This document shows positions 49,945-64,000 of a DNA stretch of 64,000 nt, piece by piece; within the stretch, counting starts at the first letter, position 1; the number at the start of each line of letters is the position of its first letter. This DNA comes from Pseudomonas fulva (GTDB lineage: Bacteria; Pseudomonadota; Gammaproteobacteria; Pseudomonadales; Pseudomonadaceae). The stretch spans positions 3,844,001-3,908,000 of the forward strand of contig NZ_CP082928.1 in NCBI RefSeq assembly GCF_023517795.1, in the 5' to 3' direction. Made by a program: the position numbers and the translations under genes. Below the pieces are notes generated by a model, which ran no database searches, had not been told where the DNA came from, and saw nothing but the letters and a program-made list of their open reading frames with translations.

Positions 49945-52545
49945 TTAGACCCGCGCCTTCCATGCATATAACAGTTCGAGTGCCTTGCGCGGGCTAAGGT
50001 CATCCGGATCGACCAGCTGCAGCTCCTCCAATACCGGGTGCGGCAGGCTGGCGAACAGATCGCTCTGCATCGGTGCGGCGGATTTCCCGGCGCCCTGGGG
50101 CGGCAGGTCATGGGGCAGGCTGGTGGTTTCCAGGCGCGCCAGATGCTCGCGGGCACGCAGGATCACCGGGGCCGGCACGCCGGCCAGTTGCGCCACTGCC
50201 AGACCGTAGCTCTGGCTCGCCGGGCCGGGCAGCACGTGGTGCAGGAAGACGATGCGCTCGTTGTGCTCGGTGGCGTTGAGGTGCACGTTGGCCACCGCCG
50301 GCTGGCTTTCCGGCAGTACGGTCAGCTCGAAGTAATGGGTGGCGAACAGCGTGTAGGCACGCAGGCTGGCCAGCTGTTCGGCAGCGGCCCAGGCCAGGGA
50401 CAGGCCGTCGAAGGTACTGGTACCACGGCCCACTTCGTCCATCAGCACCAGGCTGCGGTCGCTGGCGTTGTGCAGGATGTTGGCGGTCTCGCTCATCTCC
50501 ACCATGAAGGTCGAGCGGCCACCGGCCAGGTCGTCGCTGGAGCCGATACGGGTGAAGATGCGATCGACCATCGACAGCTCGCAGCGCGCCGCCGGCACGA
50601 AGCTGCCGATATGGGCGAGCAGCACGATCAAGGCGGTCTGGCGCATGTAGGTCGACTTACCGCCCATGTTCGGGCCGGTGATGATCAGCATCCGCGTGGC
50701 ATCGTCGAGCTTCAGATCGTTGGCGACGAACGGCGTGGTCAGCACCTGCTCGACCACCGGATGGCGGCCTTGCTCGATCAGCATGCACGGCTCGTCGACG
50801 AAACGCGGGCGGTTGAGGTCCAGGTTCAGGGCGCGTTCGGCCAGGTTGCTCAGCACGTCCAGTTCGGCCAGCGCCGCGGCGCTGTCCTGCAGCGGGCCGA
50901 GGTGGCCGATCAGCTGCTCCAGCAACGCTTCGTAGAGCTGCTTTTCCCGGGCCAGCGCGCGGCTCTTGGCCGACAGCGCCTTGTCTTCGAACTCCTTGAG
51001 CTCGGGGGTGATGAAGCGCTCGGCGCCCTTGAGGGTCTGCCGACGGATGTAGTCGGCCGGCGCCGACTCGGCCTGCTTGCTCGGCAGCTCGATGAAGTAA
51101 CCGTGCACGCGGTTGTAGCCGACCTTGAGGTTGGCCAGGCCGGTGCGGGCCTTCTCGCGGGCTTCCAGGTCCATCAGGTACTGGCCGGCGTTCTCGCTCA
51201 GCGACTGCAGCTCGTCGAGTTCGGCGTCGTAACCGGTCTTCAGCACGCCGCCATCGCGAATCACCGCCGGCGGGTTGTCGATGATCGCCCGCGACAGCAG
51301 TTCGGCCAGCTCCGGGTAGGTGCTGATCGTCGTGGCCAGTGACACCAGGTGCGTGCATTCGAGCTGTGCCATGGCCTGCTGCAGCTCCGGCAGGGCGCCG
51401 AGTGCGTCACGCAGGCGGGCCAGATCCCGTGGGCGCGCATTGCGCAGGCCGATACGGGCGAGGATGCGCTCCAGGTCGCCGATTTCCTTGAGTTGCGGCT
51501 GCAGGGTCTCGAACCGGTAGCGGTCCAGCAGGCAGGCGATCGACTCCTGGCGCGCTTCGAGCACCGCACGGTCGCGCAGCGGGCGGTTCAGCCAGCGGCC
51601 GAGCAGGCGGCTGCCCATGGCGGTCTGGCAGCGGTCGACCACCGATTGCAGGGTGTTGTCGCGACCACCGGCGAGGTTGACGTCCAGCTCCAGGTTGCGG
51701 CGGCTGGCGCCATCGAGGATCACCGTGTCGTCGATGCGTTCATGGCGCAGGCTGCGCAGGTGGGGCAGGGCGGTGCGCTGGGTTTCCTTGGCATAGGCCA
51801 GCAGGCAGCCGGCGGCGCCGATGGCCAGGGTCAGGGTTTCGCAGCCAAAGCCCTTGAGGTCCTGGGTGCCGAATTGCTGGCACAGGCTCTTCTGCGCGGT
51901 ATCGCGCTCGAAGTCCCAGGGCGCGCGACGACGCGAGCCGCGGCGCTTCTCGGCCGGCAGCCCCTGGGGCCAGTCATCGGGAATCAGCAGTTCGGCCGGG
52001 TTGAGCCGCTCGAGCTCGGCCAGCAGGTTTTCCCAGCCTTTTATTTCCAGCACGCTGAAGCGGCCGCTGGTGATGTCCAGCACGGCGAGGCCGAACAGGC
52101 GTTCGTCACCCAGCACGGCGGCCAGCAGGTTGTCGCGGTGCTCGTCGAGCAGGGCTTCGTCGCTGATGGTGCCGGGGGTGATGATGCGCACCACCTGGCG
52201 CTCCACCGGGCCCTTGCTGGTGGCCGGGTCGCCGATCTGCTCGCAGATCACCACCGATTCGCCGAGCTTGACCAGCTTGGCCAGGTAGCCTTCGACGGAG
52301 TGAAACGGAATGCCGCACATCGGAATCGACTGGCCTGCCGACTGTCCGCGGGCGGTCAGGGTGATGTCCAGCAGCTTGGCGGCCTTCTTGGCGTCCTCGT
52401 AGAAGATCTCGTAGAAGTCGCCCATGCGATAGAACATCAGCTGATCCGGGTGCTGATTCTTCAGTCTCCAGTACTGCTGCATCATCGGGGTGTGGCTGGA
52501 AATCTCGCTATTGCTGGGCTTTGCGGCGGTCTGTCTATTGGACAT
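49945..52545 (-). CDS. mutS: DNA mismatch repair protein MutS
   Basis: 866 residues, slightly longer than the ~855 usual in Pseudomonas. The mismatch-wedge motif is GDFYEIFYE (Phe44-x-Glu46). The ATPase has Walker [10 protein letters not shown] near residue 622, then [18 protein letters not shown]. The C-terminus carries the tetramer/beta-clamp region. In the repair pathway it recognises mispairs and recruits MutL. The first ~16 residues ([16 protein letters not shown]) look unlike the short start of other Pseudomonas MutS proteins. There is no good ribosome site (AAAAAG only), and the phage integrase stop codon lies 11 nt upstream, so the native promoter is probably displaced by the prophage. 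Confidence 0.95.
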
Positions 52546-52556
52546 GGGCTTTTTGT

Positions 52557-53540
52557 CTAAAACTCGTCTGAATTCTTTGGCATGTTCGGGGCGTGCGCGA
52601 CGGCGTGTTTCCGGCCCCGGATATAGCGCTGGGTCATGCGACGGTCGGTGTGGCCACCCAGCTTCTGGGCGTCCTTTCCTTCACCATCCGCGTCGGTGAG
52701 CGATTTGGCACGCAGATCGTGGATGGTCACGTTGGCGATATTGGCCTGCTCCCGAGCCCTGGCGAATGCGTCTTTAACGGTGGCATATGATACCGGCTTG
52801 CCGCCACCGCGGGTGCAGAACAGGGTGAGTCCTCGAACCTTGCGAGGCAGGGCCTTTGCTCGGTCTATTACCGCCTGGATGTCTGGCGTCATCATGACGA
52901 TCAGCTTGGCGCCGGTCTTCTTCTGCGTGAATTCGATGCCCTCGGCGGAAATGTCTGCCAGGCGGATGGCGAGCACGTCGCTGATGCGCTGGCCGGTTAG
53001 GTAGGCGAGCTCGAAGATTATCCGCATGTACTCTGAGCACTGGGCCATCAGGGCGTGGAACTCTTCATCGGTGACATAGCGGTCGCGCTTCTTCTCGGCG
53101 TGCCGCCGGATCCCGGCGCACGGGTTGCTGTCGACCAGCTGCCACTCCAGCGCGTACTGGAACACGATGCGCAGAAACGAAAGGATGCGGTTGCACATGT
53201 TCGGCGTGCTGGCCAGGTTCACCTTGATGGCCGCGACGTGCTTGGGCATCACGTCGCGCGGCTCGAATTCGGCCAGGATGTCTTTGAGCCTTGCGCCCGC
53301 GATCTCGTACTGAGCCACACTGTTGGCTGCCAGGTTCCGGCAGTGATGCTCGAGCACATCGTCGATCAGCTTGGCCATGCCGCCCTGAGCTGGCGCCATC
53401 ATGTGCTTGGCGTAGGCCAGCAGGGCCGCCTGGTAGTCGGTGTCCAGGCGGATCCACTTGCCCTTCTTCACCAGGTAGTAGGCACCGTGCTTCTGGTACA
53501 TGCAGGCCGGCAGGTGCCGATCCTTCTTTCGCGGCCGCAT
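52557..53540 (-). CDS. int: Phage tyrosine recombinase (integrase)
   Basis: 327 residues. The SAM-like core-binding domain covers about residues 52-135, and the catalytic domain 155-310 has all expected residues: Arg185 in [10 protein letters not shown], Lys near 208, His274 and Arg277 in IHDLR, His297 in GGHTDR and nucleophile Tyr306 in QRYIRG. It inserts and excises the prophage. GGGAGGG lies before the ATG. The upstream DUF4224 gene is 16 bp away and probably acts with it. Its 3' end, rather than its 5' end, faces the host gene mutS, only 11 nt away. Confidence 0.93.
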
Positions 53541-53556
53541 GGCTGCTCCCTCCCTT

Positions 53557-53760
53557 CTAGCCCGTCAACCGCAGGCGCGGCTCTCTCTTCTGTTTGTTGC
53601 CCGATACGCTGAGGCGCGATAGTACGACCTCGCGCAGCACCTTGGGCACACCATCCCCGCCGACGACGTAACCGAACCCCTGTTCCTTCAGCCATTTTAT
53701 CTGGGCGGAAGGGCGGGCGTAGCCGGTCAGCTCGGCCACTTCATCTTGCGATAGAAACAT
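53557..53760 (-). CDS. DUF4224 protein, possible excision/recombination accessory
   Basis: 67 residues starting MFLSQDEVAELTGYARPSAQ, a short winged-helix-like DUF4224 domain. The start has GAGGT upstream; a longer open frame to 53856 has poor low-complexity sequence (Gly, Ser, Asn) and is rejected. Genes of this family sit directly before integrases in many Pseudomonas and Burkholderia prophages, where an excisionase or directionality role has been suggested. That role is inference. It ends 16 bp before the integrase start. Confidence 0.8.
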   Translation of the reverse strand: MFLSQDEVAELTGYARPSAQIKWLKEQGFGYVVGGDGVPKVLREVVLSRLSVSGNKQKREPRLRLTG

Positions 53761-53794
53761 AGCGACCTCGATCCCGGCCGTGGCCGGAGTGGGG

Positions 53795-54508
53795 TTATTG
53801 TTCGATGCGTTTGAACTCGACGAGCCAGACCCAGGGGTTGGCGTGCCACGAGTCATCGCCGTTGATGGACGCCCATAGCCCGGCGAAACCGTGGATTACG
53901 GCCTCCTTGCATTCGTGCCGGCTGGGCGATGTTTCGAGGAACTGCCTGCACATGGCCGAATCACCGCCCTCGGCTTCGGCCTGGTCGCCGGTTATGTCCT
54001 GTAGGCGCTCGACGCGCACGTCGGTAACTTCGAGAAGGATGCGGCATGCGGCGCGAGGCATGTGGATGCTCGGCCTCCATTCGCCACGTTGGGAGTCGTA
54101 CAGATTGATCCATGGGTCTGGCTCGCCCGCCGCCACGCTGATCTCACGCTCGCTGTCATCAGCCCGATAGCGCAACTCGTACTCGCTGCTGTAGCCGCCC
54201 TCTTCGGAATACCCCGCCAGCATCTCGACAGACCAAGTCTCACGCACCCACAGCCGGTCGCCTGGTTGACCATACGGGCAGGTCAAGCTGCATTCGCCGT
54301 CACTCCACCAGGCACCGAATACTTCCGGGCCGGCGTCCTGATTGCCTTGGCGGTCAGTGACCGTTGTGTTGAACCGCTCGACGGTAACGCTGGCGCCGTC
54401 GTGCGGCTGCACCTTCATCGCACGGCGCTTCACCGTCTTCCGGCCGTCGAGGATGGCGCGGACCATGGGGCCGCTGAACAGGATGGGTCTTTCCTTGATT
54501 GCTGACAT
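53795..54508 (-). CDS. ASCH-like phage protein
   Basis: 237 residues. The N-terminus (IKERPILFSGPMVRAILDGR followed by KTVKRR) and a middle GDRLWVRETW are landmarks of a phage family with an ASCH/PUA-like fold, expected to bind RNA or modified nucleotides. The C-terminal WASINGDDSWHANPWVWLVE ends the domain. GAGGAG precedes the ATG. It is widespread in temperate phages next to DUF4406 genes, as here (9-bp gap). The function is unproven. Confidence 0.75.
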   Translation of the reverse strand: MSAIKERPILFSGPMVRAILDGRKTVKRRAMKVQPHDGASVTVERFNTTVTDRQGNQDAGPEVFGAWWSDGECSLTCPYGQPGDRLWVRETWSVEMLAGYSEEGGYSSEYELRYRADDSEREISVAAGEPDPWINLYDSQRGEWRPSIHMPRAACRILLEVTDVRVERLQDITGDQAEAEGGDSAMCRQFLETSPSRHECKEAVIHGFAGLWASINGDDSWHANPWVWLVEFKRIEQ

Positions 54509-54517
54509 AGCGACTCC

Positions 54518-54913
54518 TCAGGCTTGGGCAGCCAGGGCGGGCTGGGTGGTGTGGGTGGCTGGCCCGCGAAACTCGCCGGCTTCGGGCAGGAATTTGTGGT
54601 TTGTGAAGACGGGGATGCCGAGCTGTTTGGCGCGGGCGACTTCGGCGAGGGTGCCGGTGCTGTTCTGCCAGCCGGGCACCAGGACGACGGCGGCGCATTT
54701 CTCCATCAGCAGCATGGTGCCGGTCAGCCAGAAATCGTCGGGGTGGTCGAGCTGTTCTTCCATGTGGGCGGTGTTGAGGTGCGGGCACACGGGGAACCAG
54801 CCTTGTGCGGCGGCCTGGACGGCGACGGCCCGGGCGTTGGCGATGTTGCTGGTAATGGCTACCCGGTCCGGCCCGCGGTACGGGCCGGCGATGTAGATCA
54901 GGTGCTTGGTCAT
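54518..54913 (-). CDS. DUF4406 protein, nucleoside deoxyribosyltransferase-like
   Basis: 131 residues. IYIAGPYRGP at the start and PHLNTAHMEEQ and VPGWQNSTGTLAEVARAK later match DUF4406, a Rossmann-like fold related to nucleoside 2-deoxyribosyltransferases. Activity on nucleotides or base exchange is inference from the fold. GAGGA lies before the ATG. The gene is part of the leftward phage operon. Confidence 0.8.
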   Translation of the reverse strand: MTKHLIYIAGPYRGPDRVAITSNIANARAVAVQAAAQGWFPVCPHLNTAHMEEQLDHPDDFWLTGTMLLMEKCAAVVLVPGWQNSTGTLAEVARAKQLGIPVFTNHKFLPEAGEFRGPATHTTQPALAAQA

Positions 54914-54963
54914 GACGAATCCTCACCGCCGGCGCGGCCGGCATTCTGGTTGTTGGCGTTGGG

Positions 54964-55050
54964 TCAGGGCTTGGCTGGTGGGGTGCAGCGCAGGCAGGGG
55001 CACTCGGCCACTTTGAGGCCGGTGCCTCGGCAGTAGGTGGGGCGGGTCAT
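54964..55050 (-). CDS. Very small Cys-rich phage protein (28 aa)
   Basis: 28 codons starting MTRPTYCRGTGLKVAECPCL and ending after RCTPPAKP. Four cysteines (one, then C-x-C-x2-C) resemble a mini zinc ribbon. The start has GAGG 7 nt upstream. It fills the gap between the DUF4406 gene and the 119-residue gene, on the same strand, which supports it as real. The function is unknown. Confidence 0.55.
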   Translation of the reverse strand: MTRPTYCRGTGLKVAECPCLRCTPPAKP

Positions 55051-55059
55051 CCAGGAACC

Positions 55060-55419
55060 TCAGGAATAGCTGTACTTCAGGTACTTGCCTTTCGGCAGAG
55101 GTATCCAGATCTCGCCGCAGTAATCGTCGCCGGAAGGGCTGCCGCCGCTGCGCTGGTCGATGTAGATGTAGCGGAAGGCGGTGCCAGGCTCATCCTGCCG
55201 TTCACCGGCGTGCGTGTCTGTCAGCTCGAAGTCATAAACGGGACCGCCGTCGTAGTCGATGAACTGATTTATGCTGGCCAGCTTTCTTGGGCTCACCAGC
55301 ATCGCGACTTCAGCCATGATCTTGCGGCGCTGATCGTCATGCATCTTGTAATGGTCCGCCATCGATGCTGCATAGCCCGCGTCGAGATGGCACATGCGGG
55401 CAATCATGGCTTCGGTCAC
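55060..55419 (-). CDS. Phage hypothetical protein
   Basis: 119 residues from a GTG at 55419 that overlaps the preceding stop (GTGA) and has GGAGAG upstream. No recognisable family. The N-terminal half is helical (MADHYKMHDDQRRKIMAEVA), and the C-terminal half is rich in Gly, Asp and aromatic residues (RYIYIDQRSGGSPSGDDYCG). It is translationally coupled to the 160-residue gene upstream. Confidence 0.65.
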   Translation of the reverse strand: MTEAMIARMCHLDAGYAASMADHYKMHDDQRRKIMAEVAMLVSPRKLASINQFIDYDGGPVYDFELTDTHAGERQDEPGTAFRYIYIDQRSGGSPSGDDYCGEIWIPLPKGKYLKYSYS

Positions 55420-55898
55420 GGCTGCTCTCCGTGCTGGCGGCGGTGGGCAGACTCAGGAACGCCGGCGTTATGCGCCTTGATCAGATCATGCGCCTGACTT
55501 TCAGGGATGCCGCTGGCAATGTGGCCTGATCGCTCGCCATGGATCGCTATCAGCGTATCCCTGTGATCACCGCAAGCGGCGAACCATCGTTCAGGATTCT
55601 GCTCACCGCTTACAGGGTGCGGGGCGGCGGCGAGCAGGTAACGCCAGAAAGCGTCCGAGTCATTGAAGGCACTGTGATCATCACATAGAAGATCAATTGC
55701 ATTGAGAATTGCAGGTGCAGGCTCAACCGGCACCAGCTTCCACCCATCCGGCACCGCCACGCCCGCAGGCTGCTCGTGCTGGATCGAGACAATCTCCTTC
55801 AGCAGTGCCGAGCGATACTGCCCCAAGCTCTGGAAGGTGGCGGCGTGGCTGTCGTTACCGATAAGCTGGGCTAGTTGGTTCAGGTGTGGTGCGGGCAT
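55416..55898 (-). CDS. Phage hypothetical protein
   Basis: 160 residues. A short N-terminal helical segment is followed by AVPDGWKLVPVEPAPAI, a phrase that recurs in many small phage proteins of Pseudomonas and enterobacteria. The function is unknown. GAGGT precedes the ATG. It is the first gene of this leftward group, with a 181-bp promoter-bearing gap upstream shared with a plus-strand gene. Confidence 0.7.
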   Translation of the reverse strand: MPAPHLNQLAQLIGNDSHAATFQSLGQYRSALLKEIVSIQHEQPAGVAVPDGWKLVPVEPAPAILNAIDLLCDDHSAFNDSDAFWRYLLAAAPHPVSGEQNPERWFAACGDHRDTLIAIHGERSGHIASGIPESQAHDLIKAHNAGVPESAHRRQHGEQP

Positions 55899-56079
55899 AG
55901 GTTCACCTCGCCGCGCTGGCGGCCATGGTTGGTGTGGGATACTGGGTGGGCTGCAGGCCTGCTGGCGCGTCTGGCAGGGTGGGCCGGTGGGTCTGTAGCA
56001 ATTTGGTAAAACTTCGGGCGGCAGCCGGCGGGGAGCTGGCTACGCTTGGGGCAGGACCACTCACGAGAAGGAACTCGCT

Positions 56080-56313
56080 ATGGCTAGCGCCGCTTCTGCA
56101 TTCGCTGTTATCAACGAACCCATCACTTTCCAGAAAATCGCCCGCGATACGAGCGTCGCCCTCGACGTGATCGAGGCGTGGGTGACGCATGCCCGGTCCT
56201 ATGAGGACGGGAGCGGTTATCTGGTGTTTTTCAAGGCCGACACCCCGGGCGAGGTGCGGCAGCTGATCCCGCGGCTGACGCCGACCAACCTGCTGATTGT
56301 GCTGGCGGCCTGA
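56080..56313 (+). CDS. Small hypothetical protein, against the operon direction
   Basis: 77 residues on the plus strand within a leftward phage arm. AGAAGGAA lies before the ATG. The sequence (ITFQKIARDTSVALDVIEAW and then FKADTPGEVRQLIPRL) is regular and helix-rich. I recognise no family. It is divergent from the 160-residue gene and converges on the 116-residue gene with a 10-bp gap. It could be a moron gene or a small regulator; both are guesses. Confidence 0.55.
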   Translation: MASAASAFAVINEPITFQKIARDTSVALDVIEAWVTHARSYEDGSGYLVFFKADTPGEVRQLIPRLTPTNLLIVLAA

Positions 56314-56323
56314 CGGGCGCCGG

Positions 56324-56674
56324 TTACAGCAGCTCGTCCAGCGGGCCGCGGGGGCAGAGGCTCCACGGCACCTGGATCTTGTGTTCCGGCAGGCGGCAGT
56401 GCCAGGCCTGCTGGTACATCTGGCCATCTACGAACTCGACGCCCTCGATGGTGAAGGCGAGCACGGCGATGCTGTCGACGTGGGCGTCGTAGAGCTCTGG
56501 CAGTTCGGATACGCCTGGCCCGGTGTAGGCGTGGGCGACGGTGGCCTGGCGGCCCAGGGGCGTTTGCAGCGATTTGTTCATCTGCACGCACGCGCTGATG
56601 CGCGGTGCGCTGCTGAACGCCTTCTTGGGTTTGCGCTTGCCGCGCTCGAAGAGGGGGATCACTTCGTATTGCAT
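56324..56674 (-). CDS. Phage hypothetical protein behind a LexA-type box
   Basis: 116 residues starting MQYEVIPLFERGKRKPKKAF, with a basic N-terminus and a C-terminal EHKIQVPWSLCPRGPLDELL. No family recognised. The ribosome site is weak. A CTG-N10-CAG box lies 18 bp upstream of the ATG, so the gene may be switched on by DNA damage. It converges on the small plus-strand gene. Many Pseudomonas prophages carry a short gene of this kind under LexA control, but its role is unknown to me. Confidence 0.65.
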   Translation of the reverse strand: MQYEVIPLFERGKRKPKKAFSSAPRISACVQMNKSLQTPLGRQATVAHAYTGPGVSELPELYDAHVDSIAVLAFTIEGVEFVDGQMYQQAWHCRLPEHKIQVPWSLCPRGPLDELL

Positions 56675-56691
56675 GGCCGAACCGTGAATAA

Positions 56692-56707
56692 CTGTATGGA
56701 TGAACAG
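56692..56707 (-). promoter_or_regulatory. LexA (SOS) box
   Basis: CTGTATGGATGAACAG fits the LexA pattern CTG-N10-CAG with the usual TAT after CTG. It lies 18-33 bp before the start at 56674, across the expected promoter. LexA control is inference from the motif. Confidence 0.6.
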
Positions 56708-56756
56708 TATTCTAGGTTCGGCTCTGGCGGGGCGTCGAGGGCTGTTCGTCTGGAGC

Positions 56757-57041
56757 TCAGCGGGTGCCGGTCTTGAGGCCGTCTAGGTAGTTGACCTCGG
56801 CCTGCTGCCGTGGCTGCTCGCGCGCAGGCGGCTTGCCGGCGTTCACCTGGGCCTGCAGGGCGTCGAGCAGCAGCGACTGGCGGGCCTGGCCTTCGAGGTG
56901 GGCCTCGATGGCGCGGATGATTTCGGTGTTCATGCTGCTGTGGTTGTCGCCGGCCAGGTCTTCGATGGCTTTGCGCATGCCGTCGGGCAGGCGGACGACG
57001 AATTTGTCGGCGGTGCGTGAGTTGAATCCGGGGTTCGACAT
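56757..57041 (-). CDS. Arc-family DNA-binding protein
   Basis: 94 residues. The ribbon-helix-helix core is plain: DKFVVRLPDGMRKAIEDLAG forms the strand and first helix, NHSSMNTEIIRAIEAHLEGQ the second. Arc-type proteins bind operators as dimers and act as phage repressors. The C-terminal tail (about 35 residues) is polar. AAGGAAA precedes the ATG. It probably controls a promoter in this early region; the palindromes at 63394-63429 are one possible target but that is speculation. Confidence 0.85.
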   Translation of the reverse strand: MSNPGFNSRTADKFVVRLPDGMRKAIEDLAGDNHSSMNTEIIRAIEAHLEGQARQSLLLDALQAQVNAGKPPAREQPRQQAEVNYLDGLKTGTR

Positions 57042-57126
57042 GGTGGCTTTCCTTAGGGTGATAGCTTACTGACACATTCTGTGGCATTCGTTCAGGCCAG
57101 GCGCTGAGCGGTATCACAGTTCGCGG

Positions 57127-57579
57127 TTACGCCGCCGCCTGCTGGCGCCAGGCGCCCACGGCCTGGTAGATGCGGTGGGCCTGTTCTTCGTCGAGGGACA
57201 CGCTGTCGGGAATGGCTATCCAGGCGTGGCCGATTACGTGCTTGGGGTTGCAGCCGGCGATGAGGTCGGCGATGGGCTGTTCGAACAGGTCGGGCAGCCG
57301 GGTGATGATGTGGATGCCGTCGAGCTCGTACTCGACCGACTTGGCCCACTGCCGGCCGCCGTCCTGACAGATTGCGGACATGTACACCGTCCAGTGGTGG
57401 GCGATGTCGCAGAGGGCATCGGCCACGGGCTGCGTAGTGATCTTGCGGCAGGTCTTGTAGTGCAGCATGAGCTGCACCTCGGGCACGCTGGCGTCGACGA
57501 TGCAGGCCCGGTGCACGCGCAGCAGGCTGCGCATGGCGCGCTCGACCCGGGCGCGGGGGTTGTTCGGCTTGCGTTTCAT
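57127..57579 (-). CDS. Phage hypothetical protein
   Basis: 150 residues. A basic N-terminus (MKRKPNNPRARVERAMRSLL) precedes a mostly alpha-helical body; LDGIHIITRLPDLFEQPIAD and GAWRQQAAA near the end show regular helices. No family recognised. ATGGAG lies before the ATG. It follows the 41-residue gene in the same direction after 18 bp. Its length and basic start would suit a nucleic-acid-binding protein, but there is no firm support. Confidence 0.65.
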   Translation of the reverse strand: MKRKPNNPRARVERAMRSLLRVHRACIVDASVPEVQLMLHYKTCRKITTQPVADALCDIAHHWTVYMSAICQDGGRQWAKSVEYELDGIHIITRLPDLFEQPIADLIAGCNPKHVIGHAWIAIPDSVSLDEEQAHRIYQAVGAWRQQAAA

Positions 57580-57597
57580 GGTGACTCCATCGGGCGG

Positions 57598-57723
57598 CTA
57601 CTCCACCCAGCAGTGGGGCCAGATGCCTAGGGCGTAGGCCAGCGCTTCGTCGTGGTCGCATTTGGAGCCGACCATGGGGAAGCGCTTGCCGCAGGGCAGG
57701 CATACGAACCAGCAGGCTTTCAT
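57598..57723 (-). CDS. Small Cys-containing phage protein (41 aa)
   Basis: 41 residues, MKACWFVCLPCGKRFPMVGS followed by KCDHDEALAYALGIWPHCWV. Paired cysteines (C-x3-C-x2-C, later C) and a His suggest a small zinc-binding fold. Its ATG overlaps the stop of the gene upstream (ATGA), so translation is coupled. The function is unknown. Confidence 0.6.
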   Translation of the reverse strand: MKACWFVCLPCGKRFPMVGSKCDHDEALAYALGIWPHCWVE

Positions 57724-58049
57724 GGGGTGGTCACGCGGTGCGTGATCCATTCTGTTTCGTGCGGCGTCATCATCAGCGCCGAGTGCTGATGCGTGCCGTC
57801 GAGCAGCAGGTGCATGAGCTGGCGCGCACGTGCGGTTATCGCCTCGGGTTGGCTTGGGAAGCGCGGGTAGTTGATCAGGCCGACCACATAGCCGAGCTCT
57901 TCGCCGCCGGTGTAAATGAAGTTGGTTGCCTCGATGGTGACGCATAGACCTTCGCGCAGGCATTCCTGGCGGATGATCTGCTTGGCGACTTCGATTGGGC
58001 CGGAAAGGTAGATGCGCACCCAGTGCGTATCAGCGACAGTCGTATTCAT
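57720..58049 (-). CDS. Phage hypothetical protein
   Basis: 109 residues starting MNTTVADTHWVRIYLSGPIE, with GAGGT upstream. The beginning YLSGPIEVAKQIIRQECLRE has the look of a small Rossmann-like domain, and ELGYVVGLINYPRFPSQPEA follows. No named family. Its start overlaps the PAPS-reductase-like stop codon by one base (TGATG) and its stop overlaps the next start, so it is part of a three-gene coupled run. Confidence 0.65.
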   Translation of the reverse strand: MNTTVADTHWVRIYLSGPIEVAKQIIRQECLREGLCVTIEATNFIYTGGEELGYVVGLINYPRFPSQPEAITARARQLMHLLLDGTHQHSALMMTPHETEWITHRVTTP

Positions 58050-58825
58050 CAGTGGTTTACCTCGTGGAGCTTGATGTCCGCCTCGGCGATCTCGCAGAAA
58101 AACGAGCACGACATCGACGGCTCGTCCTGCAGGCGTCCACCGTCTGGTGGGATTTCGGTCAGGGCGATTCGCTCACCGGTAGCCCGGTCTCGGAAGATGT
58201 AGGCAGAAGGGCCGATGTCCGCCTCGATCGACGCGCACTCGTTGAAATCTTCAGGCAGAACCTTGCGCATGTGATTCCAGTACCCCAGGCCGCCTTTGCA
58301 GCAGCCCTTGCAGTTCGCGTTTGGGAAGCCCAAGGCGTACATGCGCGGCAGTTCGATCCCGGCGCGCTGAACGATGGCGAAGCAGTCGTCCTTGGTCAGG
58401 CCAGCGTCAACCAATGGCGCTATGAGGTCGATGTTGTTGCGGTCTATGAAGTTGTCGTACCGGTCACGTTCGTCCGCCGTGTAACCAAGCACGATCACGT
58501 CGTCAGGCCGGCGCCATGCGTCAAGCACATCACGCTTCAGCGCCTTGCTGCACGGCGCGCCGCGCATGCCTTTTATGTAGCGCTTCCTGCGCCAGACCTC
58601 GCGAACCGATGCGCCGTACTTCTCGTCGCGAAGCACGATTACCTTCTGCCCGAACCACGTCTCGCAGTCCTCGAGAAAGCGGCGATTGTCTTCGTCCTCT
58701 TCAACGATGAAGCTGTTGATGATCACCACTTCATGGGTGGCCGAATACTGAGCCAGGGCGAGTTTGGTCGCGACCGCCGAGGCGGCGCCACATGAGAACT
58801 GGCAGACGATCCTGGGTTTGTTCAT
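58049..58825 (-). CDS. PAPS-reductase-like (PP-loop ATPase) phage protein
   Basis: 258 residues. The PP-loop FSCGAASAVATKLAL at about residues 10-24 marks the adenine nucleotide alpha-hydrolase fold of PAPS reductases, related to DndC and tRNA-thiolation enzymes. Later cysteines, NCKGCCKGG near residue 180 and SCSFFC near 245, could hold an iron-sulphur cluster or zinc. True PAPS reductases have an ECG-x2-C ending not seen here, so sulphate assimilation is unlikely; a sulphur-transfer or nucleotide-modification role is inference. TAGGAA precedes the ATG. It heads a tightly coupled run with two small genes. Confidence 0.82.
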   Translation of the reverse strand: MNKPRIVCQFSCGAASAVATKLALAQYSATHEVVIINSFIVEEDEDNRRFLEDCETWFGQKVIVLRDEKYGASVREVWRRKRYIKGMRGAPCSKALKRDVLDAWRRPDDVIVLGYTADERDRYDNFIDRNNIDLIAPLVDAGLTKDDCFAIVQRAGIELPRMYALGFPNANCKGCCKGGLGYWNHMRKVLPEDFNECASIEADIGPSAYIFRDRATGERIALTEIPPDGGRLQDEPSMSCSFFCEIAEADIKLHEVNH

Positions 58826-58938
58826 GGCGATTTCCTAGCAGGCGCCGGCCTCCATGGCTGGATGCGGCGTACTGGCGAAGTGGTGTTGGGTGGGCTATTA
58901 CAGGTGACCGGCATGGTGCCGGATCACGGAGAGATGAG

Positions 58939-59127
58939 ATGGCAACTACCAAGGCTAACGATGAGTACAAGCCCAAGTGCCCGAAGTGTGGAGGCATTAA
59001 CTTCGCGGCAGTTCACGACCGCTATCTGCACAACGCGGACAAATCCATCGCGCTGATTGTTTGCGCAGATGAAAGTTGTGAGGTTGTAGTGGCAGCGCTC
59101 CCAAATGAGGCCGTGTGGGATAGCTGA
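58939..59127 (+). CDS. Small zinc-ribbon protein on the opposite strand
   Basis: 62 residues on the plus strand starting MATTKANDEYKPKCPKCGG. Two cysteine pairs, CPKC and later VCADESC, form a plausible zinc ribbon. GGAG precedes the ATG. It is divergent from the PAPS-reductase-like gene and its stop abuts the end of the interrupted gene at 59128. The function is unknown; it may be a moron gene. Confidence 0.6.
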   Translation: MATTKANDEYKPKCPKCGGINFAAVHDRYLHNADKSIALIVCADESCEVVVAALPNEAVWDS

Positions 59128-59439
59128 TCAGCCATCCCCCGGATCCCGCCGCAGCTCCCGCTCGCTCTCTTCGATAAAACGCCTCGCCACGTTTTCCGAT
59201 ATCTGGATTTCGTGGCGCGGCAGGGCGAGCGCGGCGGACGAACCTTCAGGGCCTAGGGCGTGGGCGTTGAGGATGAGGCGTTGCACGGCGTCGGCCTGTT
59301 CGGTGATGCCGTGCCAGGCCATCAGCTCGGCGAGTTTGGCGTGGATGCCGGGTCGCACTCGGTGGCGCAGCTATTTCTCGTCCCACTCTTTGCGCTTTTG
59401 GGCGGCCTTGGCGCTTCGGGCTTTTTGGGGTTGGGGCAT
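59128..59439 (-). pseudogene. Phage gene interrupted by an in-frame amber codon
   Basis: The ATG at 59439 overlaps the stop of the gene upstream (TAATG) and has AGGAGG before it, so it is certainly the native start. Reading gives MPQPQKARSAKAAQKRKEWD, then Glu-Lys, then TAG at 59373-59371 (codon 23), then in the same frame 81 more codons (LRHRVRPGIHAKLAELMAWH and onward) to a stop at 59128. A single G-to-T change of a GAG codon explains it. A GTG at 59358 could restart a 76-residue product. It may be a dead gene or a suppressed stop. The product is unknown. Confidence 0.8.
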
Positions 59440-60047
59440 TAGGCCTCCTGCTGCGCTTCGGCCTGGGCCTGCTGCAGCGAGCTGAGCTGTTCAGCGGAAA
59501 GCTCGACCGCTCGCTTGGCCGGGCTCCAGGAGAGCGGCGCCGATTTCTTGATCGCCTGGTTGAGCACCTCGAATGCAGCGATCAGCTCATCCGGCACCTC
59601 GCCATCTTCGGGAAGGTCATCAACGAAGTAATCGTTAGGGTCGAGCTGGCTGGGGTAATTCGGCTCGCAGTGCTGTAGGCGTAGCACGTCGATGCTGTAT
59701 TCGCCGTCGCTCACCGCATCTAGAAGCTCATCCAGATCGCGGAAATAGCGGTCGCCATCGAAGTCGGTCACGTAACTGTTACCGTCCCATGCTTCACGCG
59801 GTAGTGCCGCCCATCGCTCGTCGTGCTTTTTCTTCTCGCAAGGCTGGCACCAACTGTTGCGCTTCATGATGGTGCCGCAGGTCTTGCAGGGCATGTGAGT
59901 GCAGCCGCAGTAGCGTGCCATGTGCTCGGCGTCGGCGCGGGATAATGGCCAGAAGGTTCCATCGGCTGACAGCCAGCCTTCGACGCTGGTCAGCTTGGCG
60001 GCTTGCGGGGAGTCGTAGTCGATGCGTGCAGGCTCTTGAGTGGTCAT
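59439..60047 (-). CDS. Phage hypothetical protein with Cys-rich centre
   Basis: 202 residues. The segment YCGCTHMPCKTCGTIMKRNS followed by WCQPCEKKK supplies six or seven cysteines in pairs, a likely zinc site (about residues 47-73). The flanks are acidic (DELLDAVSDGEYSIDVLRL). No family recognised. GAGGT lies before the ATG; it starts 3 nt after the 131-residue gene ends and couples to the interrupted gene. A DNA- or RNA-binding role is suggested only by the cysteines. Confidence 0.7.
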   Translation of the reverse strand: MTTQEPARIDYDSPQAAKLTSVEGWLSADGTFWPLSRADAEHMARYCGCTHMPCKTCGTIMKRNSWCQPCEKKKHDERWAALPREAWDGNSYVTDFDGDRYFRDLDELLDAVSDGEYSIDVLRLQHCEPNYPSQLDPNDYFVDDLPEDGEVPDELIAAFEVLNQAIKKSAPLSWSPAKRAVELSAEQLSSLQQAQAEAQQEA

Positions 60048-60050
60048 GGT

Positions 60051-60446
60051 TCACACCTCGTTGAGATTCATCTTCGGCCCGCGCCGGATGCGGTGGTCGC
60101 GCAGGCGGTCCATCACGGTTTTGGCGCTGAGGCCGGTGGCTTCGCACATCTCTTTGATGCTGGCGCCGTTGGGTGCCATGCGCTGGAGGGTGGCCAGGCG
60201 CTCGGCGGCTTTGCGCTTTTTGGCGGTGTCGGCCGTGTGGCGCTTGTGGTCGAGCTGGCGCAGGGCGCGGCTGGGTTTGGCCTTGGGCTTGCCGGGGCTG
60301 GTGATGACGAAGGGCAGCTGTTTGTTGCCGGCGGTGACGATGGGCAGGGTTGGCACGGGGCCGTGCTGGCGCTCGTATTCGGCCATGAGGGCAGCGAGCT
60401 CGGCGCTTTTGTCGGTGCGGGGCTGGAGGCTGGGTGCGTCGATCAT
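60051..60446 (-). CDS. Phage HTH-containing protein
   Basis: 131 residues. The C-terminal part has a helix-turn-helix: GASIKEMCEATGLSAKTVMD followed by RLRDHRIRRGPKMNLNEV. The middle is basic (DHKRHTADTAKKRKAAERLA). It could be a regulator or replication accessory. The coupled neighbours on both sides are 2-3 nt apart, so all belong to one operon. No named family. Confidence 0.72.
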   Translation of the reverse strand: MIDAPSLQPRTDKSAELAALMAEYERQHGPVPTLPIVTAGNKQLPFVITSPGKPKAKPSRALRQLDHKRHTADTAKKRKAAERLATLQRMAPNGASIKEMCEATGLSAKTVMDRLRDHRIRRGPKMNLNEV

Positions 60447-60448
60447 GG

Positions 60449-60700
60449 TCAGGCCTCCAGGGGGTGGCCGCTTTCGAGGTGCTTGGCCAGTTGCTCGGCT
60501 TCAAGGTAGCTCTGGCGGAAGCCGAGGCAGCGGCCGGTGTCGGCGTCGAGGATTTGCACCATGGCACCCTTGATGAACAGTTGGGTGGCGCGCGGTTTGA
60601 TGGCGACGCGCTGCTGGGTTTGCTTGCGGGCCTCGGCGCTGCGGCGCAGGAGGGCGGGGATGGCGTCGAGGCTGGCGCGGGCGCGCTGGAGTGCGTTCAT
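60449..60700 (-). CDS. Phage hypothetical protein
   Basis: 83 residues starting MNALQRARASLDAIPALLRR. The basic helical N-terminus is followed by a small domain containing VQILDADTGRCLGFRQSYLE. No family recognised. The ATG overlaps the exonuclease stop (ATGA) and has AGGAG upstream. Confidence 0.65.
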   Translation of the reverse strand: MNALQRARASLDAIPALLRRSAEARKQTQQRVAIKPRATQLFIKGAMVQILDADTGRCLGFRQSYLEAEQLAKHLESGHPLEA

Positions 60701-61302
60701 GCTGGGCTCCTGGCGATGTGCAGGTTGAGTGCGGCGATGAGGATGCGGGCTTCGTGCATGGCGTCGTCGAGGGCGTGGTGTTTGAGGCCCACGAACTGGA
60801 CGCTATGCGCGGCCTCGGGGTATAGGTCGGTGATGGTGCGCAGGTCGCGGTCGGTCTTGTCCGGCCAGGGGCGCGGGATGTGGGCGCGCTGGTAGGCGGT
60901 GCTGGCGATGACGTTGTCGAAGGTGGCGCCGTTGCCCCACACGTAGCGTTTGCCGTAGATCGCGTCGGGCCTGTCGATGAATTCCGACAGGCGTAGCAGT
61001 GCGCTGCTGATGACCAGGCGGTCGCCTTCGTGGTAGATCTCGCGCCGCGCTTCTTCGCTCTGCTTCAGCCACCACTCGATGGTGCCGGCGTCGGTTTCGC
61101 CGCCGAAGGCGATGGCGCTGTCTACGTCGACGCGGATGTAGAGGCCGTCACCGATGACGCCGTTCTCGATGCGCACGCAGCCGATGGTGGCGATAGCGGC
61201 ATTGGGGCCTTTGCCGAGGGTTTCGAGGTCGAGCACGTAGTGGGTTGCGCGCAGGAGGGGGTGGAGGGATTCGATGGCTTGGGCGATGGGGGTTAGGGTC
61301 AT
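60697..61302 (-). CDS. DnaQ-like 3'-5' exonuclease (Rv2179c-like)
   Basis: 201 residues of the RNase-H-fold exonuclease family. The DEDDh acidic residues are visible: Asp25 and Glu27 in VLDLETLGKG, Asp129 in GNGATFDNV, and His176 with Asp180 in KHHALDDAMHEA. The spacing and the IEWWLKQSEEARREI segment match the Rv2179c-like phage exoribonuclease group. It probably trims RNA or single-stranded DNA in phage replication or recombination. GGGAG precedes the ATG; overlaps of 4 nt exist at both ends. Confidence 0.88.
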   Translation of the reverse strand: MTLTPIAQAIESLHPLLRATHYVLDLETLGKGPNAAIATIGCVRIENGVIGDGLYIRVDVDSAIAFGGETDAGTIEWWLKQSEEARREIYHEGDRLVISSALLRLSEFIDRPDAIYGKRYVWGNGATFDNVIASTAYQRAHIPRPWPDKTDRDLRTITDLYPEAAHSVQFVGLKHHALDDAMHEARILIAALNLHIARSPA

Positions 61303-61796
61303 GATTGTTCTCCCTGCTGTGCGCTCAGAGCAGCTTCTACTGAGTCAAAAACTGCCTGCAAATCGCTCAGATTGGTCAGCCCTGAAGGCTTAAACACTTT
61401 CTCGAATGTCAGTTCCCCGATCAGGTATTTATCAGCAGCGGCTGCGAGCAGCGCATTACACTCGCGCCACTTCGGAGATAGCTGACCGCATACGGAGCAT
61501 GACGATCTTGGATATGGCTTGCCTTCAGCTGCCAGCCGCTGACGGCACCCTTCCGGAGCGGCCGCCCCCGCAGGCTGTACAGATGCGCGTTCATTCCACT
61601 CACGAACAGCAACGGCATAGCCTGGCTGTTCCTCGCCGTCATCTTCCTGGATGCCAACCGGGCCGCGCGCCATGCATGCCGAATGCTCGTCCACCATGCC
61701 CTGGCAAATGACCACCGACGAACTGTTATCAAGGCGCTCAACGAGAGCATCGCTTTTGCCGCAGAACGGGCACGGCAGGATTTGTTGATCACTCAT
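61299..61796 (-). CDS. Lar-family restriction alleviation-like protein
   Basis: 165 residues. The N-terminal QQILPCPFCGKSDALVERLD carries the CPFCG start of Lar-type proteins, with further cysteines (VICQG, HSACMA) completing a zinc ribbon and the family's VREWNERA. Rac-prophage Lar in E. coli reduces type I restriction by promoting modification. The extra C-terminal half has a second CSVCG-type cysteine group and no known domain. Its presence is notable as the same chromosome carries a type I system at 19-28 kb. AAGGAG lies before the ATG. Confidence 0.75.
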   Translation of the reverse strand: MSDQQILPCPFCGKSDALVERLDNSSSVVICQGMVDEHSACMARGPVGIQEDDGEEQPGYAVAVREWNERASVQPAGAAAPEGCRQRLAAEGKPYPRSSCSVCGQLSPKWRECNALLAAAADKYLIGELTFEKVFKPSGLTNLSDLQAVFDSVEAALSAQQGEQS

Positions 61797-61811
61797 GACG
61801 ATCTCCTTGCT

Positions 61812-62186
61812 TCACGCCGCGAACGGCAGGTCTTCGGCCTTGCGGGCGATGCGCACCTGGTAGACGGTGCGCGGCGCGGTGGGGCGGCGGACGATTGGGG
61901 GTTGGGGGAGGTGGCCGGTGCCCAGCAGCAGGGCGAGGGCGAGCGGGGCGATGATTCCGCGCTTCCAGGCCTCGAGCACGGCGCCGTGGGCGGTGCGCTG
62001 GTTGCCGAGCTTGAGGCGGGCGTCGTCGAGGCGCTTGCTGACGGCGCATTCGCTGATGCCCATATCGCGGGCAATCTGCTTGAAGGGCTTGTCCTGCGCG
62101 ACGCCGAGCAGCGCCTGCAGCTGGCGCAGCGGCAGCCCCGCATTCAGCCGGCCACGCCAGCCGGGTACGGTGATGGTGTTTTCCAT
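61812..62186 (-). CDS. Phage HTH regulator (LuxR-like helix-turn-helix)
   Basis: 124 residues. The DNA-binding region is LLGVAQDKPFKQIARDMGIS followed by ECAVSKRLDDARLKLG, a GerE/sigma-4-like helix-turn-helix. The C-terminal part has a hydrophobic stretch (APLALALLLGTG, about residues 80-92). AAGGAA lies before the ATG. Such a gene at the start of the early region could regulate the operon downstream. Its target is unknown. Confidence 0.75.
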   Translation of the reverse strand: MENTITVPGWRGRLNAGLPLRQLQALLGVAQDKPFKQIARDMGISECAVSKRLDDARLKLGNQRTAHGAVLEAWKRGIIAPLALALLLGTGHLPQPPIVRRPTAPRTVYQVRIARKAEDLPFAA

Positions 62187-62330
62187 GGTTCTTCCTTGGG
62201 TAACCGCATTGGCCCAGCCACCAGGCGCGGGTGACCAAACCCTGCGTGAATAGCGCAGGCCTGGGGGCTGGCCGATGCGGTTGCGGTGTGGATAGCGCGG
62301 CCATTTGGGCCGCGCGTTTCGCGGGTTGGA

Positions 62331-63077
62331 TCAGTCGTAGATGCCGTAGCTGAAATCGTCATCGTCGCAGTCGACGACGATCTTGCTGGCGCCGTAGTAG
62401 AGGGCTGCAACGAGCTTGTCGAACTTCGAGCGGAACTTGATGACCTGGCCGATCTTGTCGCCATCAAGCCGAGCTGCGTAAACAGAGCCGATCTTGTTGC
62501 CGCGCTCGTCGCGCTCTGGTTCCCGGCGGTCGAAGGAGATGTGTATGGCGTTATCCAGGCTGTACTCGCTACGGCCACGGAAGCTGCCTTCATCTGGCTG
62601 CTTGTCGAAGTAAATGTGAAGGCCGCCGTAGTCCGAATTTTGGAAGCGGATATCCGGCGCTTCCCAGTGATTCTCAGCAGCGCTCTCTTTGTGCTCTTCG
62701 ATAAACGCTTCCATCAGGTCGTTGAGGCTGATGAATTCAGGCATCTGATCCTTCTTCAGCACCTCGTCGATCGATTCCTGAGCGCGGCGCACCATGTCCG
62801 CTTCAACGCCGCTGTTTTCCCAGCGATCCTGCAGCGCCTTGGCGATCATGGCGTTGTAGCGGGTCAGTTCAAACACCGAACCCAGGTTGGCCGGCAGTGC
62901 GGCCTTGATGGCCTCCTCGACCTGCTTGCCCATATCGCCGTAACGACCAAAGCAGTTATCGATGACCTTGGTGAACATCACCTGAACGTGCTCGTCGATG
63001 ATTTCTGCCGGTTTGCCGCTCTCTGCGAAGGCCGTTACGCGCTCGACCAGTAGCTGTTCCAGTGTCTGCTTGCTCAT
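62331..63077 (-). CDS. Phage hypothetical protein
   Basis: 248 residues. Mainly helical N-terminal half (VEEAIKAALPANLGSVFELT), then an acidic C-terminal half rich in Asp and Tyr (SKIVVDCDDDDFSYGIYD). No family is recognised. AAGGAG lies before the ATG. It is the rightmost leftward gene seen here, so its promoter in the 411-bp region upstream may drive the arm that leads towards int and mutS. Confidence 0.7.
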   Translation of the reverse strand: MSKQTLEQLLVERVTAFAESGKPAEIIDEHVQVMFTKVIDNCFGRYGDMGKQVEEAIKAALPANLGSVFELTRYNAMIAKALQDRWENSGVEADMVRRAQESIDEVLKKDQMPEFISLNDLMEAFIEEHKESAAENHWEAPDIRFQNSDYGGLHIYFDKQPDEGSFRGRSEYSLDNAIHISFDRREPERDERGNKIGSVYAARLDGDKIGQVIKFRSKFDKLVAALYYGASKIVVDCDDDDFSYGIYD

Positions 63078-63488
63078 GTCCCGCTCCTTGCTGTTCGGTT
63101 GATTTCCCAGATGCCCCTGTCGCCAAGGGCATCGAGTGAAATCTGTCTTGCGCCGCTGCGCGCCCAGGTCATTCGCACGGTTGGGTCAGCACCTCGTTTG
63201 CAGCTCGGCCCCTCTGTTGGCTCTGCTGCAGTACGCCGGTCGCTGGTGCGCGCTGCGGTGTGTTGCTCACCTGACTTTCTGTCGCCCCACAGGTGATGGC
63301 CGGGGCTGCCTCGCCGGTTGCCCGGCTAGCTGTTCATGGCGCTGGTTGTTAAAGAGCGGTTCGAGGCGGTGTGCTGCTTCGATGGCTCAAATATCAACTA
63401 CAGGTTGAGATATGTCAACTATCAGTTGATGTTTTTGATTGTGACGGTGCAGCCCTATAGCCTTGTGCCTTCACAAGGAGGGCTCCCA
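63078..63488. other. Regulatory region of the prophage, no gene seen
   Basis: This 411-bp gap separates the leftward early genes from the rightward DUF4124 pair. Part of it (63100-63340) is GC-rich without a convincing reading frame; the last 110 bp are AT-richer and carry the two palindromes at 63394-63429 and probable promoters. Confidence 0.65.
63394..63429. promoter_or_regulatory. Pair of 15-bp operator-like palindromes
   Basis: TCAACTACAGGTTGA (63394-63408) and TCAACTATCAGTTGA (63415-63429) are two near-perfect palindromes with the same TCAACT half-site and centres 21 bp apart, that is two helical turns, so dimers would bind the same DNA face. This arrangement is typical of cooperative phage repressor operators. 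The repressor gene is not identified in the window. Confidence 0.6.
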
Positions 63489-63902
63489 ATGAAATGGATG
63501 TTCGTGCTGCTGGCGCTGCCTGCGGCTTCTGCGTTCGGTGATGTTTACAAGTGCCCCGATTCCAGTGGCCGTGTGACGTTTACGGATCAGCCTTGCGCCG
63601 GATCTAGCGGGCAGAGGATCGAAATTGCGCCGCTGGCGCCTGCCGCTTCTTCCCGCGCAGTGGAGCCCGCCAATGACGATGAAGCCCGCAAGTTCATTTA
63701 CGTCGAACTGCCGGAAATAGAGCGCGAGGCGCGGGAGCTCATGCGCTCGAACGACCCAGCGCAGCAGGAGTTGGGCCGGCGCATGGCGTGGCAAGCGCAG
63801 CGCGCCCGCGAAGCACACGAGGAAGTTGAGGCGGCAAAAGCCGCGAGAGCCGAGACCAAAAGGAGGTACGAGGATGCGTATCGCAAGTTTGGCGGCTATT
63901 AG
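63489..63902 (+). CDS. DUF4124 protein, secreted, first of a tandem pair
   Basis: 137 residues. A short signal peptide (MKWMFVLLALPAASAFG) precedes DVYKCPDSSGRVTFTDQPCA, the DUF4124 core, and a long charged helix follows (LPEIEREARELMRSND and AREAHEEVEAAKAARAETKR), likely a coiled coil. It should be periplasmic. AAGGAGG precedes the ATG at 63489. It overlaps the next DUF4124 gene by 29 nt. In a prophage it may be a moron gene affecting the host envelope; this is inference. A third relative is at 48127. Confidence 0.8.
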   Translation: MKWMFVLLALPAASAFGDVYKCPDSSGRVTFTDQPCAGSSGQRIEIAPLAPAASSRAVEPANDDEARKFIYVELPEIEREARELMRSNDPAQQELGRRMAWQAQRAREAHEEVEAAKAARAETKRRYEDAYRKFGGY

Positions 63903-64000
63903 CCTGGCACTGCTTTGCTCAGGCGCTGAGGCGGACGTTTACAAATGCACCGATGCAGCGGGCCGCGTGTCTTTCTCGAAGGTGCCGTGTGGCGGCACGC
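63874..64000 (+). CDS. Second DUF4124 protein, cut by window edge
   Basis: 42 codons to the edge. A signal peptide (MRIASLAAISLALLCSGAEA) is followed by DVYKCTDAAGRVSFSKVPCG, closely like the preceding protein's core. AAGGAGG lies 7 nt before the ATG, inside the end of the preceding gene. A tandem duplication is likely. The rest lies beyond the window. Confidence 0.75.
   Translation, partial: MRIASLAAISLALLCSGAEADVYKCTDAAGRVSFSKVPCGGT

Follow-up and report, generated by a model that had tools for sequence, protein, structure and literature searches.

A Pseudomonas fulva prophage in the HTPMMQQ codons of mutS and the start codons it donates to the gene

Described elements at mismatch-repair genes

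In hundreds of Beta- and Gammaproteobacteria, Vibrio splendidus 12B01 among them, mobile elements have been described that sit within the HTPMMQQ motif of MutS (Chu et al. 2017, PMC5296598). According to Chu et al. the motif helps to bind mismatched DNA. Excision has been shown in P. putida F1, E. coli 536 and B. multivorans CF2, and the reading frame is kept on excision outside 12B01. According to their proposal, mutS passes from one regulatory region to another when the element leaves; whether non-scarring elements change MutS levels is left open there (PMC5296598).

The prophage that we analyse here lies in a stretch of 64,000 nucleotides of P. fulva (contig NZ_CP082928.1, positions 3,844,001 to 3,908,000; hereafter the window) and shares this layout. 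It is inserted in the HTPMMQQ codons, with the core at 52475-52500 duplicated at its far end, it provides an in-frame start of mutS (ATG at 52545), and the native start is orphaned on the far side (attR). The integrase gene is next to mutS, at a distance of 11 nt here compared to the 300 bp that Chu et al. used as their cut-off. By their account, the elements of Chu et al. supply a promoter too (PMC5296598). Host and element differ from the earlier cases, and here an in-frame excision product is predicted from the joined flanks. The scar of 12B01, a 2-bp deletion that leads to hypermutation (PMC5296598), is not expected in the P. fulva element. A sequence-only reading of the window had called the arrangement undescribed in Pseudomonas. 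This is wrong, because Chu et al. cover the same MutS motif and the excision in P. putida F1 (PMC5296598). A full-text literature search, judged by titles and abstracts, brought up no later Pseudomonas study of mutS-inserted elements that we recognised.

The same reading likened the locus to the SpyCIM islands. In Streptococcus pyogenes, SpyCI and SpyCIM1 are found at mutL, which shares its mRNA with mutS; they cut mutL off from its promoter, and their excision depends on the growth phase (PMC3430984). The likeness holds in that a phage-like element occupies the 5' end of a gene for mismatch repair and the native layout returns on excision. The analogy is looser in that their target is mutL within a mutS-mutL mRNA, so that the islands lie between mutS and mutL, and expression is lost unless it is rescued (PMC3430984). 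The target in P. fulva is the start of mutS, with a gene for a CinA domain and recA on the other side, and the element carries virion genes.

Prophages in this interval have been noted by Mavrodi et al. 2009 (PMC2647930). Prophages and tail-like pyocins lie between mutS and cinA in P. fluorescens (prophage 01 of Pf-5), whereas P. putida F1 and P. syringae DC3000 have unrelated prophages upstream of cinA (PMC2647930). The P. fulva prophage occupies the same interval from mutS to cinA-recA. The tail-like pyocins of P. fluorescens are described as lying between the genes, and not at an att site inside mutS (PMC2647930). The Pseudomonas phage phiAH14a (KU708004) was induced with mitomycin C and its particles had no visible tails; a term search of the paper's text found no mention of mutS (PMC4936722). 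Its integrase is 63% identical to that of the P. fulva prophage, and an att core with a mutS start cassette stands at the end of the phiAH14a genome. However, this cassette has the short form of the start (MTDLSS). Another element that replaces the 5' end of its host gene is SXT in Vibrio cholerae prfC, which supplies a new N-terminus and a promoter. The gene is a different one, and SXT is a conjugative integrating element. We also considered a natural mutS mutator, P. fluorescens ATCC948, and set it aside: its cause is a 41-bp duplication and not a prophage (PMC4316635).

The insertion habit has been known since 2017. The P. fulva element is a further case, dissected and compared across dozens of related viruses. 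The comparison finds a split between a long start directly behind the integrase gene (int), mostly without a Shine-Dalgarno, and a short one that leaves room for genes in between. Through MutS, a cell sets its mutation rate and restricts recombination between diverged DNA. With a phage family in the 5' codons of mutS, a mobile element governs how this repair gene begins.

The prophage within mutS

Two copies of an att core and an empty relative place the prophage inside mutS, in codons of the conserved HTPMMQQ motif (Table 1). The copies are 46,631 bp apart and are the only two in the 124 kb read (blastn of the junction); a pattern search of the window's genome (G000) also finds the core at two places. 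At attR the displaced native beginning of mutS, ATG AGC CAA AGC GAC CTC (MSQSDL), runs into the core and ends at a phage TAG, an orphaned stub of 15 codons. On the host side of attR follow a gene with a CinA-type amidohydrolase domain (cinA-like) and then recA. The sequence-only reading was right that mutS has lost its native upstream region, which lies displaced at attR together with the native start.

Table 1. Features around the mutS junction of the prophage, in window coordinates unless a record is named
Feature	Position	Strand	Description
mutS	49945-52545	-	866 aa, full-length; Pfam MutS domains I-V, NCBIfam mutS1
attL core	52475-52500	-	26 bp, encodes SSHTPMMQQ inside mutS
prophage-supplied mutS start	52501-52545	-	ATG + 14 codons, in frame with the host part
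arm-type repeat 2 (TCCAATAGAC)	52533-52542	-	read as MutS codons S-N-R; putative function
int-mutS gap	52546-52556	-	11 nt; without a Shine-Dalgarno of at least 4 nt
arm-type repeat 1 (AGTTTTAGACA)	52554-52564	-	contains the int stop codon; putative arm function
tyrosine integrase (int)	52557-53540	-	327 aa; Pfam PF00589 6.5e-21, PHROG integrase 2.4e-51
excisionase (xis)	53557-53760	-	PHROG excisionase 6.4e-20; longer ORF to 53856 = DUF4224 3.6e-14
early region, leftward, towards xis-int-mutS	53795-63077	-	exonuclease gene 60697-61302
attR core	G000:C1:3943106-3943131 = L022:15106-15131		exact second copy of the attL core

The sequence-only reading had proposed a comparison with a prophage-free relative to find attB. 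In the relative G001 the site is empty. Host DNA preceding the attR core matches G001 without a difference over 124 nt (92.6% over 1,521 nt), and the MutS of G001 shows 98% identity starting at residue 9. When the host flanks are joined in silico, MutS starts exactly as in G001. The prophage donates 15 mutS codons that replace the native six, which makes MutS nine residues longer. If excision is precise, mutS would recover its own start together with the host region upstream of it; that host sequence returns to mutS on excision, as the earlier reading expected, is what the joined flanks predict, with a native in-frame start.

Both cores in G000 read TCCAGCCAC. The closest empty relative, G001, has AGTTCTCAT, preceded by the 124 identical nt. 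We considered that the core might be a conversion scar of earlier integration cycles. We rejected this idea because a similar allele, including the rare TGGAGACTG, is native in G382 (L091), a genome with a single copy of the site; ordinary allelic variation suffices.

By the ORF positions, int ends with a TAG stop codon 11 nt upstream of the mutS ATG (52543-52545). This spacing had been noted before and is borne out, with Pfam identifying both genes and NCBIfam naming mutS as well. Because the recombination site lies within the mutS coding sequence, the 11-nt gap is inside the prophage and is not its junction. The best Shine-Dalgarno match before the ATG is 3 nt, which agrees with the earlier remark that there is no good ribosome site. 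Further upstream, int and xis are 16 nt apart. The early genes had been described as running leftward in coupled units. In one chosen ORF list most of them do run leftward, and several abut or overlap (several overlaps are 4 nt long), but others are separated by gaps of 80-302 nt.

The donated mutS codons overlap repeats that resemble integrase arm sites. The motif AGTATTAGAC, with at most one mismatch, has three copies in 124 kb, all about 130 bp or less from the two cores; 0.6 copies are expected by chance, and the maximum in 20 simulations was also three. With two mismatches allowed there is no enrichment, with 1 match in the window versus 2.3 expected. Related elements keep such a repeat pair at the same place: a loose expression for it fits 63 of the 81 sites, and the spacer is 13 nt long in 51 of these. 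The sequences were also compared by eye. The placement of these candidate arm sites is telling, their number alone is not decisive.

The element is 46,631 bp long, and all main phage modules were found when 30 proteins were searched against PHROG. The matches comprise the integrase, excisionase, exonuclease, a CI-like repressor, a replication initiator, a helicase loader and a second tyrosine recombinase, as well as large terminase, portal, head protease, major capsid, tail protein, tape measure, anti-repressor, endolysin and spanin. The full-length integrase aligns with six relatives from one end to the other. From its gene content, the prophage looks intact. The gene for the second tyrosine recombinase (L021:4226-5257, that is G000:C1:3912226-3913257; 343 aa, PHROG integrase 1.4e-42) belongs to the rightward early region. 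A PAPS-reductase-like gene is found at 58049-58825 in the early region (PHROG 1.5e-46). A search of 52000-64000 with Rfam gave nothing at the gathering threshold.

Related elements and two forms of the mutS start

Among 149 genomes of the genus, all seven integrases with E <1e-100, including that of the window, are encoded upstream of mutS, within about 1.2 kb. An exact pattern search found the motif DNA in 395 of 398 genus genomes, with at least two copies in 23. These 23 were picked by eye from the pattern table and searched again, 22 of them sorted together and G000 separately. True attL/attR pairs are present in 14 of them, the window's genome included, so at least 14 of 398 genomes (at least 3.5%) are occupied. 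Since the pattern is exact, this number is a lower bound. In eight other multi-copy genomes the second copy is an ectopic fragment. The last one, G201, carries three complete mutS starts, each on a contig of its own (C10, C34 and C35). These three starts are near-identical and probably reflect an assembly duplication.

Copies of the mutS start also occur away from mutS. At L159:2012-2098 (G027:C1:449011-449097), more than 300 kb from the mutS of G027, a frame-shifted int relic is accompanied by a mutS start cassette of the long form and a few mutS codons. Short copies lie near position 1500 in L134, L149, L145, L146, L123 and L153, and some share flanks between genomes. Perhaps these short copies are traces of secondary integration. 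In G359 the mutS site holds an element of about 140 kb across the record ends (G359:C1:7325013-93603), if the record is circular. The 1.5 kb beside mutS contain no related integrase, and no arm motif was seen there; another kind of element may use the mutS site in G359.

We pooled 125 loci from reference-species matches, IMG/VR matches (best 80 of 120) and family-level matches. The set contains the window's own integrase a second time, as L244. A core follows int in 95 loci, and the removal of 14 duplicate att sequences leaves 81 unique sites, 71 joined to mutS and 10 not joined (free-phage-like or at contig ends). The 30 loci without a core include 12 with distant integrases (27-44% identity) and 8 whose DNA runs out inside int or no more than 100 nt beyond it. 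When the remaining 10 were re-examined, five had a variant core (HTPVMQQ or HTPMLQQ, then a stop) and five had none in the DNA examined. The core-less L241 comes from G165, where int and the mutS core are about 2.2 kb apart, beyond the stretch examined.

Each of the 81 unique sites offers an in-frame start from which the core is reached with no stop codon in between. An in-frame ATG without a stop is present in the mutS frame in 77 of 81 sites, compared to 2 and 4 in the other frames. In the other occupied sites the mutS reading frame stays open throughout the stretch read, roughly 500 codons.

The start comes in two forms. In 26 of the 81 sites it is long (17 codons before HTPMM, with no nearer ATG), in 49 it is short, and 6 sites have both. 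The mutS of the window has the long start; native starts in the genus lie 6 to 11 codons before the motif. Long-start sites join mutS in 18 cases, and the other 8 are free-phage-like or cut off. In all 26, the window included, the start follows the int stop codon after 11-20 nt, and only 2 have a Shine-Dalgarno of at least 4 nt, compared to 26 of the 55 other sites. The distance from int to HTPMM is at most 71 nt in every long-start site and exceeds 150 nt in 26 of the 55 others. Intervening DNA is thus found in 0/26 versus 26/55 sites (Fisher p=5e-6, raw and with kinship ignored).

Ancestry changes this picture. When it is counted, the same association comes down to 5 independent pairs with a median p of 0.5; it is not significant, and so few pairs cannot reach 0.05. 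Where the paired lineages differ, they differ in the direction that coupling predicts. On the integrase tree, which used 80 of the 81 rows, the long form requires at least 6 changes, 5 of them forced by well-supported branches, and the closest integrase relative of the window, L161, has the short start. The spacing and the scarcity of ribosome sites suggest that int and mutS are translationally coupled in the long-start subgroup. Because significance is lost on the integrase tree, we keep this coupling as a hypothesis only. If it holds, the start form predicts which members couple mutS to the phage state and which do not.

Expression of mutS and the genes between int and mutS

We are confident that, taken as a whole, the locus is best explained by a prophage inside the HTPMMQQ codons that supplies the start to a full-length MutS and can be excised, with a coupling to int as the weaker part. 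Integration has moved the host upstream region and the first six mutS codons to attR, and the phage gives a start and 14 in-frame codons in exchange. The lysogen therefore encodes a full-length MutS with a different N-terminus, nine residues longer. The prophage can probably excise, and the fused MutS is probably functional, as native starts in the genus already place 6 to 11 codons before the motif, compared to 17 here. In the long-start subgroup, ribosomes that finish int might go on to translate mutS, so that the MutS level would follow the int mRNA. On induction, mutS expression would in that case go up for a short time, until excision hands the gene back to its native promoter.

A constitutive promoter of its own, located near the end of int or within the att region, would leave the mutS level in the lysogen little changed and provide no switch; we give this reading slightly less than an even chance. 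Such an arrangement exists in SpyCIM5 of strain Manfredo, where a promoter inside int drives mutL (PMC3430984). Related elements with DNA between int and mutS point the same way: in 14 of 26 such sites the longest intervening ORF is directed away from mutS, which makes readthrough from int unlikely there, so these members may bring their own mutS promoter. The 14 were counted by eye on mechanically chosen longest ORFs and include two near copies, L234 and L236. The window itself argues against an own promoter, as it has neither intervening DNA nor a Shine-Dalgarno of 4 nt. Neither does a weak test on 20 elements favour one, for no match near mutS is clearly above shuffles.

The sequence-only reading saw no promoter between int and mutS. 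The consensus scan indeed finds no sigma-70-like site in 52400-56500, but it is uninformative, since it comes up just as empty at the native start of mutS, a place that should have a promoter. A promoter shared among the elements was also sought: the best sigma-70-like matches in the 220 nt before the core of 20 elements were not clearly above shuffles and allow no conclusion. The best case, L059, was equalled in 10 of 200 shuffles and the window in 93 of 200, with a scan that misses the native start as well.

The sequence-only reading went further and put mutS on the leftward transcripts of the phage, so that the repressor state would set the mutation rate. We consider this possible but doubtful. 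It is consistent with xis and int lying directly upstream on the same strand, with a start 11 nt after int that lacks a Shine-Dalgarno, and with the absence of a terminator-like site on the minus strand of the int-mutS gap. The dependence on phage transcripts also gains from the tight spacing behind int in every long-start site. It loses from three minus-strand sites upstream of xis that resemble terminators (53780, 56089 and 56155) and could cut early transcripts before int, and from the relatives with intervening DNA, which argue for an own promoter at least there. Furthermore, a repressed int would presumably mean little MutS and a cost, yet mutS is intact. A switch of mutS by the phage state is plausible but unproven.

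It is improbable that the lysogen is a partial mutator because its fused MutS is poorly translated or less active. The start without a Shine-Dalgarno would fit, as would an altered N-terminus beside the mismatch-binding motif (Chu et al. 2017, PMC5296598). However, native starts in the genus already vary between 6 and 11 codons before the motif, in the solved structures 1e3m and 1ewq the chain has 6 and 13 residues, respectively, ahead of the matched stretch (tags may count in some chains), and mutS stays open in the other occupied sites. Still less probable, and in our view very unlikely, is a dead and fixed prophage that leaves the arrangement as a relic. Decayed relatives do exist, for example the frame-shifted integrase in G027. 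Yet the P. fulva prophage has a full-length int, identical att cores and genes for lysis, packaging and tail. An ancient, degenerate prophage, which the sequence-only reading had named as counter-evidence to its own proposal, is not what we find, as all main modules are present.

For the prophage-supplied start with coupling to int, a stronger version can be formulated for the long-start subgroup. The DNA bound by the integrase arms would double as the first MutS codons, and mutS would be translated solely by ribosomes that have just finished int. The MutS dose would then be a read-out of int expression: low in a quiet lysogen, high at prophage exit and native afterwards. We regard this version as rather unlikely. 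If it were true, the cell's mismatch-repair dose would report integrase expression.

The stretch between int and mutS carries a range of genes in related elements. L062 has a zeta-toxin-like gene there (L062:11176-12054), and L066 has an ORF at the same place, both of them examples of longest ORFs directed away from mutS; further accessory genes are L197:2113-3099, L234:4008-4919 and L189:3997-5061. A scan of 10 cargo proteins for defence systems (PADLOC) returned one weak match (JetC, 1.2e-4) and none for the other nine. Pfam matches were obtained for 4 of 10 proteins searched, and the slot genes comprise a zeta-toxin-like kinase, an SDH-type (ClpP-like) serine protease, a HATPase/STAS protein and unknowns. 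The int-mutS slot is possibly an accessory or defence slot in these related prophages.
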